DNA of 64,000 nt from Winogradskyella sp. (GTDB lineage: Bacteria > Bacteroidota > Bacteroidia > Flavobacteriales > Flavobacteriaceae): contig JAOEWO010000001.1 of the NCBI GenBank assembly GCA_028383925.1, positions 163,629-227,628 of the forward strand, in the 5' to 3' direction. The notes beneath the pieces were generated by a model. That model saw only the letters and a list, made by a program, of their open reading frames with translations, was not told the origin of the DNA and made no database searches. This document shows, in pieces, positions 28,311 through 63,074 of this stretch. The stretch's first letter is position 1, and every line of letters starts with the position of its first letter. Position numbers and translations under genes: made by a program.

Positions 28311-28335
28311 TTCCTGCGAAGGCAGGAATCTTTTT
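28311..28335. repeat. interspersed hairpin repeat / probable terminator
   Basis: TTCCTGCGAAGGCAGGAATCTTTTT; exact reverse complement at 56051-56075. Confidence 0.85.
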
Positions 28336-53560: not shown

Positions 53561-54079
53561 ATGAGGCCATACCTATTTTATATATTCACCTGTTGTTTTT
53601 TATTTACCGGATTCTCCCAAAACAAGTCTTCTATTGATTTTGTTATTAATAATTTAGGAATAAATGTAGATGGTCATTTTAACTCGTTTTCTGTTTCGAG
53701 CAAATTTAACAGTGCTAATTCAGCATTAGAAAGTATTACGGGCGCTATAAATGTGTCTTCTATAAAAACAGGTATAGACAGTAGAGATGAACATTTGTTA
53801 AATGAAGATTATTTTAACATAGAAAAGTATAAACAAATCACCTTTAAAAGCTCGGCTATTACCAAAGTATCAGAAACAGAATATAAGGTCACAGCGAATC
53901 TAAAAATAAAAGGAATTACAAAGGCAATTACGATTAAAGTTAATGTCAAAAAACAGACTGATAGTTATAAAATCTCATCTAGTTTTGAGATAAATAGAAA
54001 AGATTTTGATGTAGGCGGTAGCAGCTTTGTAATGAGTAAAACTGTAAAAATTAATGTCATACAATACCAGAAGTTATAA
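53561..54079 (+). CDS. YceI-like periplasmic lipid-binding protein
   Basis: Signal peptide; GAINVSSIKTGIDSRDEHLLNEDYFNIEKYKQITFKS, LKIKGITKAI. Confidence 0.9.
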   Translation: MRPYLFYIFTCCFLFTGFSQNKSSIDFVINNLGINVDGHFNSFSVSSKFNSANSALESITGAINVSSIKTGIDSRDEHLLNEDYFNIEKYKQITFKSSAITKVSETEYKVTANLKIKGITKAITIKVNVKKQTDSYKISSSFEINRKDFDVGGSSFVMSKTVKINVIQYQKL

Positions 54080-55213
54080 ATGATAAAACAAGATTTTGAT
54101 GTTGTTATAATTGGTGGTGGTTTAGCCGGTCTTACAAGTGCTATTCACTTATCTAAGACAAACTTTAGCGTGTTACTTATTGAGAAAAATACCTATCCAA
54201 AGCATAAGGTCTGTGGCGAATATGTATCAAATGAGGTTTTACCATATCTTAATTATTTAGGTTTTAATCCTTTTGAGTTTGGTGCAAAACAAATTTCAAA
54301 ATTTGAGTTAACTACACATAATAATAAGACTATAACAGCCAATTTACCATTAGGTGGCTTTGGGATGAGTCGGTATCAAATGGATTATCAATTATATAAA
54401 CGTGCTTTAGAAACGGGAGTTGAGGTGCTTCAAGATGCCGTTACAGATGTTAATTTTGAATCTGATAATTTTCAAATCGAAACCAAATCAAGCAAGAGTT
54501 TTCAAGCAAAAATAGTTATTGGTGCTTTTGGTAAACGCTCTAATTTAGATGTAAAATTCAATCGTAAATTCATCACTAAAAAATCACCTTATTTAGGAGT
54601 TAAGATTCATGTTTCTGGTAATTTTCCTCAAGATAAAGTGGCACTTCATAATTTTAAAGGAGGGTATTGCGGAGTCTCAAAAGTAGAAAACAACCATATT
54701 AATTTGTGTTACATTACAGATTTTAAGGCGTTTAAAAAGTATAAAGATATTAATGCGTTTCAAAACGAAGTCGTGTTTAAAAATTCAGCTTTAAAGGACG
54801 TATTTAAAAGTTCTAAACCAGAGTTTGAAATACCACTAACAATTAGTCAAATTTCTTTTGAAACTAAAAGCCCAATAGAAAATCACATGATAATGTGTGG
54901 TGACACCGCAGGTATGATTCACCCACTTTGTGGCAACGGAATGGGTATGGCAATTCGGAGTTCTCAATTAGCATCGCAGTTGATTATTGATTATCTTCAA
55001 GAAAAAATTAAAACGCGTTCAGATTTAGAAAATCAGTACACCAAACAATGGTACAAAACGTTTAAATGGCGCCTAAGAGCAGGCCATACCATAGCTTATT
55101 TATTTAGGCAAAATTGGTTGGCACCCATACTATTAAGTGGCTTACGCTGGTTTCCGTTTTTGCTACCTAAAATTATTAAAATGACCCACGGAAAACCCAT
55201 GATTATTAAATGA
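54080..55213 (+). CDS. FAD-dependent oxidoreductase (geranylgeranyl reductase/flavoprotein hydroxylase-like)
   Basis: DVVIIGGGLAGLTSAIHL, HKVCGEYVS, MCGDTAGMIHPLCGNGMGMAI. Confidence 0.88.
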   Translation: MIKQDFDVVIIGGGLAGLTSAIHLSKTNFSVLLIEKNTYPKHKVCGEYVSNEVLPYLNYLGFNPFEFGAKQISKFELTTHNNKTITANLPLGGFGMSRYQMDYQLYKRALETGVEVLQDAVTDVNFESDNFQIETKSSKSFQAKIVIGAFGKRSNLDVKFNRKFITKKSPYLGVKIHVSGNFPQDKVALHNFKGGYCGVSKVENNHINLCYITDFKAFKKYKDINAFQNEVVFKNSALKDVFKSSKPEFEIPLTISQISFETKSPIENHMIMCGDTAGMIHPLCGNGMGMAIRSSQLASQLIIDYLQEKIKTRSDLENQYTKQWYKTFKWRLRAGHTIAYLFRQNWLAPILLSGLRWFPFLLPKIIKMTHGKPMIIK

Positions 55214-55920
55214 GCTTATTTATAGACACAACATACCGTAGCAATAAAACCGAAATCATGGATGATTTTACCATGAAAGGAGAGCTAATGCGAGATACCT
55301 TAGACAAACTAGGAAGCATTAATAAATGGCTTGGTGGTAATAGTATTACTATAGATGGTATTAGGCAATTATTAAAAGATCAACCAAAAGAGAAGACATT
55401 TACCATTATAGATTTGGGTTGTGGTCATGGTGATATTTTAAGGTTAGTGGCAGATTTTGGAAGAAAAAATGGCTATAAACTTCAGTTAATAGGCATCGAT
55501 GCTAACCAAGACGCTATAGATTACGCTAATGAATTATCTGTAAATTATCCTGAAGTTTCTTTTAGAAATGAAGATATTTTTTCAGAAGAATTTAGAGCGA
55601 TTAATTACGACATTGCATTAACCACACTTTTTTTACATCATTTTAAAGAAGATGAATTATTAGCATTGTTATCAAATCTTTCAAATAATGCCAACATGGG
55701 TGTTGTTGTTAATGATTTACAGAGAAGTAAAATGGCCTATGTTTTATTTAAACTTTTAGGCATTTTTATTTCAAATTATATGATAAAACAAGATGGATTA
55801 ACCTCTATTCTTCGCGCTTTTAAACGTGAAGATTTAGAAGCGATGTCTAAAAAATTAAATCTTAAATCACAAATTCGTTGGAAATGGGCATTCCGTTACC
55901 AATGGCTTATTTTTAGTTAA
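55210..55920 (+). CDS. SAM-dependent methyltransferase
   Basis: IIDLGCGHGDILRLVADF motif; overlaps preceding gene by 4 nt. Confidence 0.88.
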   Translation: MSLFIDTTYRSNKTEIMDDFTMKGELMRDTLDKLGSINKWLGGNSITIDGIRQLLKDQPKEKTFTIIDLGCGHGDILRLVADFGRKNGYKLQLIGIDANQDAIDYANELSVNYPEVSFRNEDIFSEEFRAINYDIALTTLFLHHFKEDELLALLSNLSNNANMGVVVNDLQRSKMAYVLFKLLGIFISNYMIKQDGLTSILRAFKREDLEAMSKKLNLKSQIRWKWAFRYQWLIFS

Positions 55921-56050
55921 GAGTTAAGTATTGTTCCCTTGAGGATTAATGAGAAACAAAATATTTTTTGTTTAGAAATTACCGAGCGAAGCTCTTAGGG
56001 GTGTTTTTAATCGTAATATATAAAAACACACCACAATTTTATATTAATTA

Positions 56051-56075
56051 AAAAAGATTCCTGCCTTCGCAGGAA
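56051..56075. repeat. interspersed hairpin repeat immediately 5' of type III PKS
   Basis: AAAAAGATTCCTGCCTTCGCAGGAA; exact reverse complement of 28311-28335. Confidence 0.85.
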
Positions 56076-56081
56076 AATAAT

Positions 56082-57134
56082 ATGGCAGTAAGAATAACAG
56101 CAGTAGCAAAACAACTTCCAAAATATACTAGAGAAACAAAGGATATTTTACCTTTTGTAGCGCTTTGGTTAGAAGGGCAAGAAGACCGTTTTAAACGAAA
56201 AGTTTTAAAGATTTTTGAAAACGCAGCCGTTGATAAACGCTATTCTATTATGGATCCAGAAGAAGTGTTTTTAAATACCTCTTTCGAAGAGAAAAATGAT
56301 ATTTATATCAGAGAATCTATAAAATTAGCAGAGGCAAGTTTATTAAAAGTGCTAGATAAAGCCAAGTTACAACCTACAGATATTGACTATATTATAACAG
56401 TAAGTTGCACAGGTATAATGATTCCGTCTTTAGATGCTTATCTTATTAATAGCTTAAAAATGAAGCAAGATATTGTGCGTTTACCTGTTACAGAAATGGG
56501 TTGTGCGGCAGGTGTTTCGGGTATTTTATATGCTAAGAATTTTTTAAAGGCAAACCCTAATAAGCGCGCTGTTGTAATTGCTGTAGAAGCACCAACGGCA
56601 ACATTTCAGTTAGAAGATTATTCTATGGTAAATATTGTTAGTGCAGCCATTTTTGGTGACGGTTGTGCAAGTGTTATTTTATCATCTTATGAAGACGAAA
56701 AAGGACCAGAAATTAAGGACGAAGCCATGTATCATTTCTATGATGCCGCACATATGATGGGTTTTAAATTAAGAAATACAGGTCTACAAATGATTTTAGA
56801 TCAGTCTGTGCCGCAGACCATTGCAGATCATTTTCCAAAAATTATTCATCCGTTTTTAGAACGTAACAATTTAAAAATTGAAGATATTGATCACCTAGTA
56901 TTTCATCCTGGTGGAAAAAAAATTGTGCAAACAGTTGAAGACTTATTTGGTGCCTTAGGTAAAAATATAGATGATACAAAAGAAGTTTTACGTCTTTATG
57001 GTAATATGAGTAGTGCCACTGTTTTGTATGTTTTAGAGCGTTTTATGGACAGAGATTTACCCAAAGGCGATAAAGGTCTTATGTTGAGTTTTGGGCCAGG
57101 TTTTTCTGCACAACGTATTTTGTTGGAGTGGTAG
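56082..57134 (+). CDS. type III polyketide synthase (chalcone/stilbene synthase family)
   Basis: Catalytic Cys (EMGCAAGVSG), His (VFHPGGKKI), Asn (YGNMSSATVLYVL); GFGPGFSA-like C-terminus (SFGPGFSAQRILLEW). Confidence 0.93.
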   Translation: MAVRITAVAKQLPKYTRETKDILPFVALWLEGQEDRFKRKVLKIFENAAVDKRYSIMDPEEVFLNTSFEEKNDIYIRESIKLAEASLLKVLDKAKLQPTDIDYIITVSCTGIMIPSLDAYLINSLKMKQDIVRLPVTEMGCAAGVSGILYAKNFLKANPNKRAVVIAVEAPTATFQLEDYSMVNIVSAAIFGDGCASVILSSYEDEKGPEIKDEAMYHFYDAAHMMGFKLRNTGLQMILDQSVPQTIADHFPKIIHPFLERNNLKIEDIDHLVFHPGGKKIVQTVEDLFGALGKNIDDTKEVLRLYGNMSSATVLYVLERFMDRDLPKGDKGLMLSFGPGFSAQRILLEW

Positions 57135-57152
57135 TTTCAAAATTATAAATAA

Positions 57153-57185
57153 AGACCTCACAGGTTTTTAAAACCTGTGAGGTCT
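57153..57185. repeat. near-perfect palindromic interspersed repeat
   Basis: AGACCTCACAGGTTTTTAAAACCTGTGAGGTCT. Confidence 0.88.
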
Positions 57186-57198
57186 GCTAACTAGAAAA

Positions 57199-57996
57199 AT
57201 GATAAAAGAATTTCAAAATAAAAACCAATGGGCATTAATCCTTGGCGGAAGCAGTGGCTTAGGCTTAGCTACAGCTAAAAAGCTAGCCAAACACGGTCTA
57301 AATATTTGCATCGTTCATCGTAATTCTAGAATGCAAGAGGACGAAATTCAATTAGAATTTGAAACTATTAAGAAGGAAGATATTCAGTTTAAAAGTTTTA
57401 ATACAGATGCTTTTAAACCTGAGAAAAGAGATGCTGTTATTGAAGAATTAAAAGTCCTTTTTGGAGAGAATCACAGGGTAAAAATATTAGTACATAGTGT
57501 TGCTAAAGGCAATTTAAAACCCATGGTTTCAGAAGAAAAACCAGTATTAAAAAATGATGATTTTGCCTTAACTATAAACGCTATGGCGATTAGTTTGTAC
57601 GATTGGACAAAAGTATTATTTGATGCTCAATTATTTGCTGATGATGCCAGAATTGTAAGTTTTACAAGCGAAGGCAATACAAAAGCATGGCAAAATTACG
57701 CAGCAGTCTCTGCAGCAAAAGTAGCTTTAGAAGCCATTACAAGAAACATTGCTTTAGAGTTTGCGCCTTTCGGAATAAAAGCCAATTGCATACAAGCAGG
57801 TGTTACAGATACATCGTCACTGCGCATGATTCCTGGTAGTGATAAAATTATAGAACATACCTTAAAACGAAACCCTAATAAACGTTTAACACGTCCTGAA
57901 GATGTGGCAAATGCCGTCTATTTATTAGGTAAAGATGAAGCCGCTTGGATTACAGGAACCGTTATTCCTGTTGATGGTGGTGAGCACCTTTCTTAA
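57199..57996 (+). CDS. SDR oxidoreductase, enoyl-ACP reductase (FabI/FabL)-like
   Basis: GGSSGLGLATAKKL NAD(P) motif; YAAVSAAK = Y-x6-K; C-terminal DVANAVYLLGKDEAAWITGTVIPVDGG. Confidence 0.85.
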   Translation: MIKEFQNKNQWALILGGSSGLGLATAKKLAKHGLNICIVHRNSRMQEDEIQLEFETIKKEDIQFKSFNTDAFKPEKRDAVIEELKVLFGENHRVKILVHSVAKGNLKPMVSEEKPVLKNDDFALTINAMAISLYDWTKVLFDAQLFADDARIVSFTSEGNTKAWQNYAAVSAAKVALEAITRNIALEFAPFGIKANCIQAGVTDTSSLRMIPGSDKIIEHTLKRNPNKRLTRPEDVANAVYLLGKDEAAWITGTVIPVDGGEHLS

Positions 57997-58010
57997 TTCT
58001 AAAATAAATC

Positions 58011-58057
58011 GTCACTTCGAGTAATTTTTGAGGAACGAAAAAATTGTATCGAGAAGT
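58011..58057. repeat. interspersed imperfect palindrome
   Basis: GTCACTTCGAGTAATTTTTGAGGAACGAAAAAATTGTATCGAGAAGT between SDR and dehydratase genes. Confidence 0.7.
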
Positions 58058-58067
58058 TTAAATTAAA

Positions 58068-58505
58068 ATGAAAACAAAAGAAATCATAAAGTTATTACCC
58101 TATCAAAAACCCTTTCTATTTGTAGAAGGCATCGATACTGTTTCAGAAAATGGAATCACAGGCCATTACACCTTTAAAGAAGACGAATCGTTTTACGAAG
58201 GTCATTTTAAAAACAATCCAATAACACCAGGTGTGATTCTCACAGAATGTATGGCACAAATAGGGTTGGTATGTTTGGGTATTTATTTGTTGAAAGATGA
58301 ATTAGATAAGGCTTCTAGACCACAAATAGCTTTAACAGCGCATCAAATGGATTATTATCTTCCGGTATTACCAAACGAGAGGGTCATAGTGATTTCTGAA
58401 AAGGAGGTGTTTCGTTTTAATAAATTAAAGTGTAAAGTGAAAATGTTAAATGAAAAAGGAGATTTGGTGTGTCGTGGACAAATATCAGGAATGCTTAAAG
58501 TATGA
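58068..58505 (+). CDS. FabZ-like 3-hydroxyacyl-ACP dehydratase (hotdog fold)
   Basis: GHFKNNPITPGVILTECMAQ. Confidence 0.88.
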   Translation: MKTKEIIKLLPYQKPFLFVEGIDTVSENGITGHYTFKEDESFYEGHFKNNPITPGVILTECMAQIGLVCLGIYLLKDELDKASRPQIALTAHQMDYYLPVLPNERVIVISEKEVFRFNKLKCKVKMLNEKGDLVCRGQISGMLKV

Positions 58506-59776
58506 AAAAAAGAGTAGTGATTACGGGTTTAGGGGTTGTTGCACCAAATGGTGTTGGTGTATCTGATTTTACAAAAGCCTTAAAAGAAGGCACGTCAGGA
58601 ATTACATTTCATCAAGAATTAAAAGATTTAAAGTTTTCATGTCAAATAGGAGGTGTCCCAAACATTTCAGACGAAAAAAAATCAGAATATTTTACAGATT
58701 TACAATTAAGAGGTTTTAATAGCTCAGGGATTTTATATGGTTGCATAGCAGGAATAGACGCATGGAAAGATGCGGGTTTTGATATGAACCCAGAAACTCA
58801 ACTCGATTATAATACAGGCTTAATTTTTGGAACCGGAACATCTGGTGTTGATAAGTTTAGAGAAGCCATATATAAAGTAGATGAAGGTAATGTAAGACGT
58901 ATGGGAAGTACTGTAGTTTTACAAACTATGGCTAGTGGAGTAAGCGCTTATTTAAGCGGCATGTTAGGTTTGGGTAACCAAGTTACTACAAATTCTTCGG
59001 CCTGTACAACTGGTACAGAAGCCCTTTTAATGGGGTATGATCGTATACAAGCAGGTAAAGCAAAACGAATGTTGGTTGGTAGTTGTAGTGATCATGGCCC
59101 ATACCTTTGGGCTGGTTTTGATGCTATGCGCGTTATGACTTATAAGTACAATGAAGATCCTGAAAATGGTTGTAGACCAATGAGCGCAACAGCTTCTGGC
59201 TTTGTGCCTGGTAGTGGTGCAGGTGCACTTGTTTTAGAATCTTTAGAAAGTGCATTAGAACGTGGTGCAACTATTTATGCTGAGGTTTTAGGTGGTGAAG
59301 TAAATTCTGGCGGACAACGACAAGGTGGTACGTTAACAGCACCAAACTCTCAAGCCGTGCAACGTTGTATTGCAAAAGCCATAGAAAATTCTGGTATAGA
59401 TTCTAATACCATTCAGGTTATTAATGGACACTTAACAGCAACCTCTAAAGATGGTTTAGAAATTGAAAACTGGACAAAAGCTTTAGGAAGAGAAAAGCAT
59501 AATTTTCCGTTTATAAACTCAACAAAATCTATGATTGGTCACTGTTTGGCAGCAGCAGGAGCTATTGAATGTGTGGCGAGTATTATTCAATTAAAAGAGC
59601 AGTTTGTAGCACCAAATATAAATTGCGATGATTTGCATCCTGATATTGAAAGCTTGATAGATTCGAAATGTATTCCAACAGAAAAAATAGATTTGAATTT
59701 TGACGTTATTGCCAAGGCAAGTTTTGGTTTTGGGGATGTTAATGCCTGTGTAATTTTTAAGACCTATAAGTATTAA
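58502..59776 (+). CDS. beta-ketoacyl-ACP synthase (KAS I/II family, divergent)
   Basis: SSACTTGTEAL Cys site, NGHLTATSKD and STKSMIGHCLAAAGAIE His/Lys sites. Confidence 0.92.
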   Translation: MKKRVVITGLGVVAPNGVGVSDFTKALKEGTSGITFHQELKDLKFSCQIGGVPNISDEKKSEYFTDLQLRGFNSSGILYGCIAGIDAWKDAGFDMNPETQLDYNTGLIFGTGTSGVDKFREAIYKVDEGNVRRMGSTVVLQTMASGVSAYLSGMLGLGNQVTTNSSACTTGTEALLMGYDRIQAGKAKRMLVGSCSDHGPYLWAGFDAMRVMTYKYNEDPENGCRPMSATASGFVPGSGAGALVLESLESALERGATIYAEVLGGEVNSGGQRQGGTLTAPNSQAVQRCIAKAIENSGIDSNTIQVINGHLTATSKDGLEIENWTKALGREKHNFPFINSTKSMIGHCLAAAGAIECVASIIQLKEQFVAPNINCDDLHPDIESLIDSKCIPTEKIDLNFDVIAKASFGFGDVNACVIFKTYKY

Positions 59777-59919
59777 ATAGCCCTAGACAGACTTTTAATA
59801 AAGTGTTGTATCTTTTAGATTACAACTATAATTATTAGTAAAGCTATACAATTAGAATCTAGAAGTCTCACAGCGCTTGTCGAAGTGTTTTTCGTAACTT
59901 TACACTAAAAAATTGTACA

Positions 59920-60171
59920 ATGACTAACGAACAATTAATTACAAAATTAAAAGCAATCATTGCCCCTTATGTTCAAGATGAAGCGGCTTTTGCAACATTA
60001 AATGAAACTACAGATTTTGTAAAAGACCTAAAAATAAATTCGGCAAACCTAGTAGATATTATTTTAGATATTGAAGATGAGTTTGACATTCGACTAGAAA
60101 ACGAAGACATGGAAAAAATGCTCGATGTTAAAGCTGCCATAGATATTATTAACACCAAGTTAGCTAGCTAA
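59920..60171 (+). CDS. acyl carrier protein
   Basis: 83 aa; INSANLVDIILDIEDEFDIRLEN phosphopantetheine site region. Confidence 0.9.
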   Translation: MTNEQLITKLKAIIAPYVQDEAAFATLNETTDFVKDLKINSANLVDIILDIEDEFDIRLENEDMEKMLDVKAAIDIINTKLAS

Positions 60172-60782
60172 TGATAGGTAATGATATTGTTGATCTTAAA
60201 GAAGCAAAACTAAAATCGAACTGGCAAAGGCCTCGTTTTTTAGAGAAATTATTTACACAAAAAGAACAACAGTTTATTCATAATTCAGATAATGCCTTTT
60301 TAATGGTTTGGCGTCTGTGGAGCATAAAAGAAGCTGCTTATAAGCTGTACACACAATTAAATCCTAGTCGATTTTATAACCCTAAACAGTTTGAATGTGA
60401 TATGAATAGTTTAGATTATATAGTCCGTTACAAAGACTTTCAATGTTTTGTAAAAACGAAGATTAGTACTCAATATATTTTATCAGAAGCGCGCTTGGTA
60501 TCTTGTGAGATGATTTCAGATTGTATAGAAATACCTAATAATTCTTCTAAAATACAAAGCAGCATAATGATATCTTATGTTTTAAATGCTATTTCTAATG
60601 TATTCAGTATAACTAAAGAACAGCTTAAAATTGTGAAATCTGAATTTGGCATACCTCAGATATATCAACATTCAAAAAAAATAAATATTAGTATATCAAT
60701 AAGTCACCATGGGAATTATGGTGCTTATGCTATTTGTGATTTAGTTAGCTCGAGTGCAGTCGAGAGGTCTTTAAAATACTAG
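60171..60782 (+). CDS. 4'-phosphopantetheinyl transferase
   Basis: MIGNDIVDLKEAK, LWSIKEAAYKLY, SISHHGNYGAYAI motifs. Confidence 0.9.
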   Translation: MIGNDIVDLKEAKLKSNWQRPRFLEKLFTQKEQQFIHNSDNAFLMVWRLWSIKEAAYKLYTQLNPSRFYNPKQFECDMNSLDYIVRYKDFQCFVKTKISTQYILSEARLVSCEMISDCIEIPNNSSKIQSSIMISYVLNAISNVFSITKEQLKIVKSEFGIPQIYQHSKKINISISISHHGNYGAYAICDLVSSSAVERSLKY

Positions 60783-60812
60783 AAATTAGGTCTCGACTGC
60801 GCTCGACCAGAC
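60749..60812. repeat. REP-like inverted pair overlapping the 3' end of the PPTase gene
   Basis: AGCTCGAGTGCAGTCGAGAGGTCT (60749..) and AGGTCTCGACTGCGCTCGACCAGACAG (60788..). Confidence 0.8.
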
Positions 60813-60821
60813 AGAGAATTA

Positions 60822-63074
60822 ATGAAGCGACTGCAACTTATTATAGAATTCATCATCAAATTTAGAATAGCAATAATTATAATTATTGCAGTTTTAATGG
60901 GTGTTTCTGGGTATCAAACATTTCAAAAACTAAGAGTCGATAATTCGCTTTCTATTTGGTTTTTAGAGGATGATCCAAGCTATAAGGCCTATATAGATTT
61001 TCAAGAAGATTTTGGTTCAGATGAGATTTTTATTGCCATGCTACCGGTTAATAATGCTATTGGTGAATTAGAGATGAATGTATTGCATCAGCTTCATAGA
61101 GACATTGAGAGTTTACCTTATGTTAATACCACCTTTAGTTTAGCAAAAGCGAAGTACCCTATTTACGCAAATAGTAACATAAATTTTGACGCCTTATATA
61201 ACAGAAACCGAAGTGAAAAGGGCCTAAAAAGTTTGTTTTCAAAATTAGAAAACGTCACATCGCAATTAGTAACTAAAGATTATAAAAATCAGTTTTTTTA
61301 CATTCAACTTAATCCAACACCTACTGTTGAAGAAAAGCGCCAAGATATTGCGGGCGAATTGCGTACTATTATAGAAAAACACTATTCTAATTATTATTTA
61401 ACGGGTCCACCTGTTTTAAACGAGGCCTACAGTAAAGGCATTTACAAAGAGAGTTTAACTTTTGGCATATTAACCGTTCTTGTTATTACACTTTTATTAT
61501 TGTTTTTACTGCCTAGTAAGCGCTATTTGGTTATCTCGCTATTATCCGTTGCTGTGCCAGTAGGTTTGTTATTTGGTCTTATAACGTCTTTAGGGTTTGC
61601 ATTGAATATGATTTCTATGCTTATTCCTACCATACTCATGGTGTATAGTGTTAGTGATGCCGTACATATTATAAATATTTATCATAAAGAAGGGTTAGCA
61701 AACAAAGCACTATCTAAAGCTGGGCTATTAGCATTAGCGGTTCGTAAAAGTTTTACACCCTGTTTTTATACAACGCTTACAACATTTGTTGGTTATTTTG
61801 CATTGTACTTATCACCATTGCCAGCATTTAAAAACATGGGTGTTTTTACTTGTATTGGTTTAGCGCTTAGTTTTTTATCAGTTTATGTAATTACGATTAT
61901 AGGTTTTAGTTTTTTGACTTTAAATTTTGAAGCTGCTCAACCTATTTTACGTATAAAAAAGTATTCTCAAAGTAAATTTATTGCTTGGTTAAATGGGTTT
62001 ACGTCTCAGTACAAAACAACTATTATTATTTTGTTTACATCAGTACTTTTATTTGGGGTATATTCTATTTTTAATGTACAAATAGATACTAATTCTCGAG
62101 ATCTTTTAGCTGAAGGAAAGGCTAAACAAGACTTAAGAACGGTAGAGGTTGAGCTTGGCGGAAGTAATCGTTTACAGTTAAATATAGCAACAACAAATGG
62201 TGAAAAAATACTAACTAAGGATGCGATGAAACGTTTAGAGGGTTTTCAAAATAAACTTGAAAATAACCCACTAATTTCTAATCCGGTTTCTGTAATTACG
62301 ATAAAAACATTTTTAGAACAACGCACACCTGTTTTATTTCAATCTAATGTATCTCAAGACGCTATACAAAATACGTTAGGTGTTTTAGATGTGAATGACA
62401 ATAGTTTTTTTAAATTGTTTTCTGAAGATTTAACGACCGCTGGTTTTACTCTAACGCTTCGAGAGATGAAAACGTCTGAGTTAGAACAAGTTTTAAACGA
62501 TGTTAAAGTTGCTTTTAAAACGTCATTTGACACCACAGATTATAGTCTTGAAATTAACGGATTTGCGGTTGTATTTGCACAGTTAAATACTTTCATTTTA
62601 GAAACACAGTTTAAATCCTTTTTTGCTGCATTTTTTGTAGCCTTTTTGTGTCTATGGGTTTTTATAAAAAGTTTGAAGACGACACTTTTAGTATTAATTC
62701 CTAATTTATTACCTCTTATGGTTTTGGCCATTTTTATGAGTCTGTTAGGTATTCCGTTAGACGTATCTACAGCAATGATTACACCTATAATGTTGGGTAT
62801 TGCTATGGATGACACTATTCATCTGGTATATAAATACAGAAAAAGTGAAACCGTTTCTGGTACACCCGAGTTACGAATGAATAATGCCATGCGTTATACA
62901 GGAGGTGCTTTAATTTCTACAACTATTGCATTGGTAGGTGGTTTTTTAATTATTGCATCTAGCGCAACACCATCTGTAAGAGATTTTGGGTTGTTGTGTT
63001 CCGTTACTGTAGCTATAGCTTTAGTTACAGATATCTTTTATTTGCCTGCCTTATTAAAGCAGTTTGATAAGTAA
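60822..63074 (+). CDS. MMPL/RND family transporter
   Basis: 750 aa, two 6-TM halves, GIAMDDTIHLVYKYR and PTILMVYSVSDAVHII motifs. Confidence 0.9.
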   Translation: MKRLQLIIEFIIKFRIAIIIIIAVLMGVSGYQTFQKLRVDNSLSIWFLEDDPSYKAYIDFQEDFGSDEIFIAMLPVNNAIGELEMNVLHQLHRDIESLPYVNTTFSLAKAKYPIYANSNINFDALYNRNRSEKGLKSLFSKLENVTSQLVTKDYKNQFFYIQLNPTPTVEEKRQDIAGELRTIIEKHYSNYYLTGPPVLNEAYSKGIYKESLTFGILTVLVITLLLLFLLPSKRYLVISLLSVAVPVGLLFGLITSLGFALNMISMLIPTILMVYSVSDAVHIINIYHKEGLANKALSKAGLLALAVRKSFTPCFYTTLTTFVGYFALYLSPLPAFKNMGVFTCIGLALSFLSVYVITIIGFSFLTLNFEAAQPILRIKKYSQSKFIAWLNGFTSQYKTTIIILFTSVLLFGVYSIFNVQIDTNSRDLLAEGKAKQDLRTVEVELGGSNRLQLNIATTNGEKILTKDAMKRLEGFQNKLENNPLISNPVSVITIKTFLEQRTPVLFQSNVSQDAIQNTLGVLDVNDNSFFKLFSEDLTTAGFTLTLREMKTSELEQVLNDVKVAFKTSFDTTDYSLEINGFAVVFAQLNTFILETQFKSFFAAFFVAFLCLWVFIKSLKTTLLVLIPNLLPLMVLAIFMSLLGIPLDVSTAMITPIMLGIAMDDTIHLVYKYRKSETVSGTPELRMNNAMRYTGGALISTTIALVGGFLIIASSATPSVRDFGLLCSVTVAIALVTDIFYLPALLKQFDK

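Follow-up and report, generated by a model that had tools for sequence, protein, structure and literature searches.

A conserved flavobacterial operon that joins a type III polyketide synthase trio to a dedicated type II fatty-acid synthase set

Gene content and conservation of the cluster

In this study, we analysed a 64,000-nucleotide stretch of DNA (the window) from Winogradskyella sp. (contig JAOEWO010000001.1, positions 163,629 to 227,628; assembly GCA_028383925.1, 2.9 Mb in 101 contigs, 83% complete) for a cluster of genes around a type III polyketide synthase (PKS) at window positions 53561-63074. A sequence-only reading had described ten consecutive same-strand genes of stated families, several of them overlapping or abutting, and this was borne out by the open reading frames of the window and their Pfam families, all ten lying on the + strand. 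The first gene encodes a YceI-like lipocalin of 172 aa (53561-54079; PF04264, 107 bits), an accessory lipid-binding protein, and abuts the gene of a flavin adenine dinucleotide (FAD)-dependent oxidoreductase of the geranylgeranyl-reductase/UbiH-like superfamily (54080-55213; TIGR02032, 114 bits, under the cut-off). These are followed by a class I S-adenosylmethionine methyltransferase of the type associated with type III PKSs (55210-55920; Methyltransf_31/25; PRK06202, 132 bits, under the cut-off), the type III PKS (56082-57134; PF08392/PF02797/PF00195), a short-chain dehydrogenase/reductase (SDR; 57199-57996), a FabZ-like 3-hydroxyacyl-acyl carrier protein (ACP) dehydratase (58068-58505; PF07977), a beta-ketoacyl-ACP synthase (KAS) of the KAS I/II type (58502-59776; PF00109/PF02801), an ACP (59920-60171; PF00550), a 4'-phosphopantetheinyl transferase (PPTase) of the Sfp/AcpS superfamily (60171-60782; PF01648) and an accessory MMPL/RND-type lipid exporter (60822-63074; PF03176, 110 bits). 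Overlap or abutment occurs at four of the nine junctions (YceI/FAD 0 bp, FAD/methyltransferase -4, FabZ/KAS -4, ACP/PPTase -1), and the remaining five are spaced 39-161 bp (methyltransferase/PKS 161, PKS/SDR 64, SDR/FabZ 71, KAS/ACP 143, PPTase/MMPL 39). The closest named relatives of the window PKS are from Winogradskyella, at 93-94% identity.

Gene order was compared over a synteny set of 134 loci, each gene being counted where the flank was long enough. The FAD gene (130/130) and the methyltransferase gene (132/132) were always present, followed by FabZ (125/130), KAS (124/127), ACP (123/126), SDR (107/132) and PPTase (86/119). The core set is formed by the FAD enzyme, methyltransferase, type III PKS, SDR, FabZ, KAS and ACP, with the PPTase usually added; leaving the SDR aside, all six core genes were intact and on the same strand in each of the 121 fully covered loci. 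YceI (38/128) and MMPL (20/119, and also in the distant locus L292) are optional accessories, and their inclusion in the set by the sequence-only reading did not hold. Overlap or abutment recurs across the loci at the FAD/methyltransferase (116/129), ACP/PPTase (86/92), FabZ/KAS (73/124) and PKS/SDR (41/107) junctions. Since an identical gene order is found in more than 120 loci, the cluster is far beyond chance, and the gene set is a conserved operon and no one-off. The loci are phylogenetically non-independent; this aside, their counts agree with a genus-level sample of Flavobacteriaceae (151 genera, one genome each).

The cluster is not rare, being present in about one third of the sampled genera, with a true PKS orthologue (63-100% identity) in 49 of the 151 genomes. 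PKS and KAS occurred together in 48 genomes and were both missing from 102, with one PKS-only and no KAS-only genome (Fisher p 7e-39). At least 568 PKS-encoding stretches were found in the GTDB genome set, and the best 80, which were retrieved, came from Winogradskyella, Psychroserpens, Gelidibacter, Lacinutrix, Tenacibaculum, Polaribacter, Brumimicrobium and others. A class-wide search with the KAS found further complete clusters in other families (L287-L289, L292, L295-L297, L299, L300), in which the PKS can be as little as 52% identical. Many Bacteroidota of sea and soil carry what appears to be an ordinary kind of pathway in an unusual, very widespread and new arrangement.

In Flavobacteriaceae, antiSMASH already recognises type III PKS clusters as a category, which accounts for 9-11% of clusters (PMC7440613, PMC10734526), and surveys count them without products (PMC10734526). 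These clusters, which amount to about one tenth of the gene clusters of the family with no product assigned (PMC10734526), may in many cases represent one conserved lipid operon. The sequence-only reading knew of no characterised product for this gene set, and likewise no publication on its architecture or product was found in the open-licence literature, outside which most subscription journals lie.

A dedicated mini-FAS and its separability from the trio

Two proteins of the fatty-acid synthase (FAS) part, the SDR and the ACP, have turned out to be more specific than first described. Among solved structures the SDR is closest to FabL of Bacillus subtilis (3oic), and it has a Tyr-X6-Lys spacing (Y167/K174) in 108/108 orthologues, the residue at Y+4 not being lysine. 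Such a spacing marks enoyl reductases of the FabI/FabL class (PMC9260719). The score against the NCBIfam FabL model is 156 bits, below the equivalog cut-off of 328, and the SDR is, by motif and score, a FabL-like enoyl reductase, not FabL proper. A ketoreductase role for the SDR was ruled out by the YX6K spacing and the residue at Y+4. Because the SDR is a YX6K enoyl reductase, there is no ketoreductase in the cluster, and no malonyl transferase or starter KAS III was found among the ten cluster genes (Pfam); therefore the set is not a self-sufficient FAS, and we infer that these steps are borrowed.

The other FAS enzymes keep their catalytic residues, namely H46/E60 of FabZ (127/127), C168/H310/H347/K342 of the KAS (126/126) and the D/K/E/K set of the PPTase (93/93). 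The KAS forms its own clade, with ~33% identity to FabB and ~32% to housekeeping FabF. Complete relatives also carry housekeeping FabF and an LpxC-FabZ fusion as separate genes, thus the cluster KAS and FabZ are extra copies, and a housekeeping role for them was ruled out on the same ground. In the window genome a single FabZ-family gene was seen, but that assembly is 83% complete.

The usual ACP motif around the serine is D-S-L. In the cluster ACP the serine, S41, stands within N-S-A, with N40-S41 in 126/126 orthologues and N-S also in 12/12 distant relatives, including the cassettes that lack a PKS. The INSA motif in place of DSL and the YX6K reductase can serve as markers for finding the operon. 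We regard the FAS set as dedicated because the housekeeping functions have genes of their own (FabF, LpxC-FabZ) and the ACP stands out by its motif. The sequence-only reading, which proposed a dissociated FAS set dedicated to the type III PKS, was thus right in part: dedication is supported by co-occurrence, overlaps and the additional KAS and FabZ, but self-sufficiency is not. All FAS enzymes of the cluster are discrete single-domain proteins. Elsewhere in the host genome (G000:C5:13951-14700), a ketosynthase domain lies in a 2,201-aa open frame, a large multidomain synthase.

The operon joins two separable modules, a tailoring trio like those of hierridin and polyketide quinones and the dedicated type II mini-FAS. 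The FAD-methyltransferase-PKS trio is known as hidABC in cyanobacteria and as the alkylresorcinol operon of planctomycetes (PMC8086630, PMC10896814), and is annotated on plasmids of Paludisphaera, Deinococcus, Psychrobacter, Paracoccus, Roseomonas, Microvirga and sphingomonads; in each annotated case inspected, plasmid relatives of the methyltransferase adjoin a type III PKS. The methyltransferase and FAD enzymes are homologous across phyla (25-32% and 23-34% identity, respectively, to hidABC-type examples), and the FAD enzymes share a CGE motif. As in hidABC and the planctomycetal operon, the type III PKS, class I methyltransferase and FAD oxidoreductase are adjacent here on the same strand; unlike there, the PKS belongs to another clade, the order is FAD-methyltransferase-PKS, and dedicated KAS, FabZ, enoyl reductase, ACP and PPTase genes follow.

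The SDR-FabZ-KAS-ACP-PPTase cassette, whole or partial, is also found without a PKS in Bacteroidia (L285, L286, L290, L291, L294, L298). In L291 and L294 it stands beside PhyH, glycosyltransferase and asparagine-synthase genes, in L286 it includes a KAS III, and in L290 a divergent block of genes that includes one for a KAS III-like protein lies next to it. Coordinates of such PKS-less sets are L291:7551-10194, L294:43-2206 and L285:7321-10980, one of them lying within a glycan-type cluster (PhyH, GT2, asparagine synthase).

These PKS-less cassettes, the type III PKS trios without FAS in other phyla, and the finding that hid and planctomycete PKSs need acyl-CoA only (PMC10896814) would fit two independent lipid pathways under a common promoter, with the FAS devoted to a special fatty acid of a membrane lipid or glycolipid and the PKS fed by ordinary acyl-CoA. 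We consider this distinctly unlikely, however, as within the family PKS and KAS are apart in one genome only, the PKS and SDR genes overlap or abut in many loci as given above, and two genomes in which the set is split after the SDR (G146 and G792) retain both halves. Coupling of the mini-FAS to the PKS is, by inference, supported by the near-perfect co-occurrence of PKS and KAS, the operon overlaps, the extra KAS and FabZ and the known chemistry of the trio, and the retention of both halves in the split genomes lends it further support.

The polyketide synthase and the predicted lipid

The PKS has the chalcone synthase (CHS) fold, and its Cys141-His275-Asn308 triad as well as F228 are invariant (135/135). 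The sequence-only reading had the active-site residues of PKS, ACP, KAS and dehydratase conserved, which is correct, as they are invariant in 126-135 orthologues. The closest solved sequences and folds to the PKS (model with a mean predicted local distance difference test (pLDDT) score of 83) are Pks11, which makes long-chain alkylpyrones, and CylI, which makes a resorcinol. In ArsB of Azotobacter, Trp281 directs resorcinol formation and its loss leads to pyrones (PMC6274091, PMC9927152), and both ArsB and ArsC accept acyl-ACP (PMC6274091). Phe228 of the cluster PKS is placed at the ArsB Trp281 position by its nine-residue spacing to Met237, like Gly284-Met293 in ArsC. An aromatic wall at this position would favour a resorcinol without proving it.

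The two modules may also act in series with a different ring closure, in which lactonisation of a tetraketide or triketide by the PKS would give an alkyl-alpha-pyrone, from which the methyltransferase and FAD enzyme would make a methoxy- or hydroxy-pyrone, as for Pks11 and the bps type. Pks11 is the nearest solved sequence and fold, and flavobacterial PKSs are nearer to bps-type PKSs (30-36% identity) than to most hid-type ones (25-27%). On the other hand, CylI, an almost equally close fold, is a resorcinol maker, the methyltransferase and FAD partners are of the hid type, which acts on resorcinols, and the ICMT-family methyltransferase that follows bps-type PKSs is missing from the cluster genes (Pfam). 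Thus a pyrone product seems unlikely to us. ICMT does follow distant Bacteroidota PKSs.

With respect to tailoring, the model of the FAD enzyme (pLDDT 85.5) matches flavin halogenases (Bmp2, PltA), UbiI, PqsL and hydroxybenzoate hydroxylase with similar scores, and aromatic hydroxylation is its likely but not certain function. Trios of type III PKS, methyltransferase and oxidoreductase make alkylresorcinols (PMC10896814) and polyketide quinones (PMC9927152), and it is from this chemistry that the tailoring by FAD enzyme and methyltransferase proposed in the sequence-only reading draws its support. Polyketide quinones have been shown to be electron carriers in mycobacteria and proposed as such for Streptomyces (PMC9927152). 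The srs operon of Streptomyces, cited earlier as the parallel, and pkq of mycobacteria do share the logic of this trio, which gives methoxylated alkyl-benzoquinones, but hidABC and PkQ-type trios are equally close; srs and pkq differ in having no dedicated FAS, whereas the ACP is private here, and PkQ-type PKSs have Trp281 where Phe is found in the present enzyme.

A dedicated FAS is the point of likeness to arsABCD of Azotobacter vinelandii, in which it feeds acyl-ACP to type III PKSs that form alkylresorcinols or alkylpyrones. Here too FAS genes are co-encoded with the type III PKS, but as discrete type II enzymes with tailoring genes, whereas ars has a multidomain type I FAS resembling polyunsaturated fatty acid (PUFA) synthase. 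In cylindrocyclophane synthesis, CylI likewise acts on a chain from a dedicated synthase, in that case a modular type I PKS with no type II FAS set. Sphingomonad plasmids (Sphingobium yanoikuyae pKN1, Novosphingobium pLA3) have ACP and KAS beside type III PKS, methyltransferase and FAD genes, but their FabF-like KAS is 27% identical and they lack FabZ, enoyl reductase and PPTase. The low KAS identity ruled out a common origin, so the two sets were recruited independently; the sphingomonad genes lie at L134:2489-6808 (Sphingobium) and L278:1695-6678 (Novosphingobium).

Taken together, the operon probably makes a phenolic lipid, with the mini-FAS supplying a private acyl-ACP for the type III PKS. 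In this scheme, the cluster PPTase would charge the NSA-motif ACP, on which KAS, FabZ and the FabL-like reductase would lengthen the acyl chain, while housekeeping fatty-acid synthesis would lend the ketoreductase (FabG), the malonyl-ACP and the acyl group used as starter. The PKS would receive the chain, most likely directly from the ACP, add three malonyl units and close an alkylresorcinol. Ring hydroxylation by the FAD enzyme and methylation by the methyltransferase would then give a methoxylated alkyl-hydroquinone or quinone-like lipid, which in some lineages the YceI lipocalin and MMPL pump may move to the envelope. Ubiquinone-8 and related lipids are known ligands of YceI proteins (PMC9113575), and this would fit a lipoquinone in YceI-bearing lineages, although as a lead only.

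The analysis shows gene content and order, co-inheritance, conserved active sites and the additional FAS copies, while channelling from the ACP, the type of ring, the sequence of tailoring steps, the quinone nature and the trafficking are predicted. Several points weigh against this reading. The match of Phe228 to ArsB Trp281 comes from alignment and spacing, not from a direct alignment with ArsB, and Pks11, a pyrone maker, has an aromatic residue at the same position. Flavobacterial PKSs form a clade apart from hid-type PKSs (both 100/100, in a tree without HidC itself), and since the PKS is outside the hid-type clade and Pks11 is also aromatic at this site, a resorcinol is not secured. The FAD family includes reductases and halogenases as well. 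Genome G139 of the genus-level sample has the PKS without the KAS. The enoyl reductase is missing from about one fifth of loci, and no orthologue was found elsewhere in the reductase-less genomes searched, therefore enoyl reduction is borrowed or absent there.

The order might also be reversed, with the PKS making a small aromatic acyl starter in the manner of DpgA and KAS, FabZ and enoyl reductase extending it to an aryl-alkyl or aryl-polyene chain on the private ACP, as in aryl polyene and flexirubin pathways; the loci without the reductase would then yield a polyene. DpgA is also the best NCBIfam match of the PKS (177 bits, cut-off 425), and sets of KAS, FabZ, ACP and MMPL resemble those of aryl polyene clusters. 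Nevertheless, the operon has no DpgB/C/D partners, ammonia lyase or aryl-ACP ligase, the nearest solved PKSs take long acyl starters, and the KAS is just ~33% identical to aryl-polyene-type and FabB-type KAS, so that we regard this order as very unlikely. Flexirubin and aryl polyene clusters also combine KAS, dehydratase, ACP and MMPL exporter to make aromatic-headed lipids in Bacteroidota, but they use DarA/DarB-type enzymes and no type III PKS; membership of the flexirubin/DarB group was rejected (DarB model 30 bits, cut-off 550).

Should the proposed phenolic-lipid route be confirmed, the operon would represent a type III PKS supplied by a type II FAS, and dominant marine bacteria might possess a non-isoprenoid quinone. 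More tentatively, and with considerable doubt on our part, the lipid may constitute a widespread new class of polyketide lipoquinone of Bacteroidota, which would act as a redox-active carrier in the membrane, have a private acyl tail and, in some lineages, be transported by YceI; the mini-FAS with its NSA-type ACP may be a general, portable Bacteroidota cassette that gives various head-group pathways private fatty chains. Reductase-less genomes and those with a split operon offer natural experiments.

Variant loci, neighbouring genes and repeats

The operon is close to rpmF-fabH-accB-accC in Winogradskyella-like loci, and in ~30 other genera genes for a 2-oxoacid dehydrogenase E1, a lipocalin and an OmpA-like protein are found in its vicinity; both neighbour sets touch fatty-acid priming, but inherited synteny may account for them. 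A ~140-aa hydrophobic, apparently multi-pass membrane protein is encoded on the same strand after ACP, PPTase or MMPL in L097 (5716-6147), L292 (12400-12813) and 17 other loci; it had no Pfam or NCBIfam match, was not detected at the window locus, and is a candidate extra member of the cluster. The operon copy of Lacinutrix neustonica (L170) is decaying, with a broken KAS frame, a stop within FabZ and wider gaps. In Flagellimonas lutimaris (L149) and Muricauda sp. CP2A (L153), the PKS is 91-92% identical to that of the window despite the other genus, and horizontal transfer or mislabelled genomes are possible explanations.

Genes intervening between SDR and FabZ were considered as pathway members and rejected, being mostly RAYT transposase-like or unrelated inserts that vary between loci. 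Scans of the window for promoters were uninformative, with nine matches to the Bacteroidota motif against 7.8 expected and sigma-70 matches at chance level. The PKS-SDR gap contains a perfect palindrome at 57153-57185 with GACCTCACAGGTTTT arms. The GACCTCACAGGTTTT repeat is shared with the relatives L057, L143, L151, L175, L188, L192, L199 and L204, in which a transposase-like gene of the RAYT type (~186 aa) separates PKS/SDR from FabZ, and the palindrome looks like a REP/RAYT-like element invading operon gaps. Another palindrome, TTCCTGCGAAGGCAGGAA, occurs twice in the window, at 28311-28328 and, in the methyltransferase/PKS gap, at 56058-56075, where none would be expected by chance.

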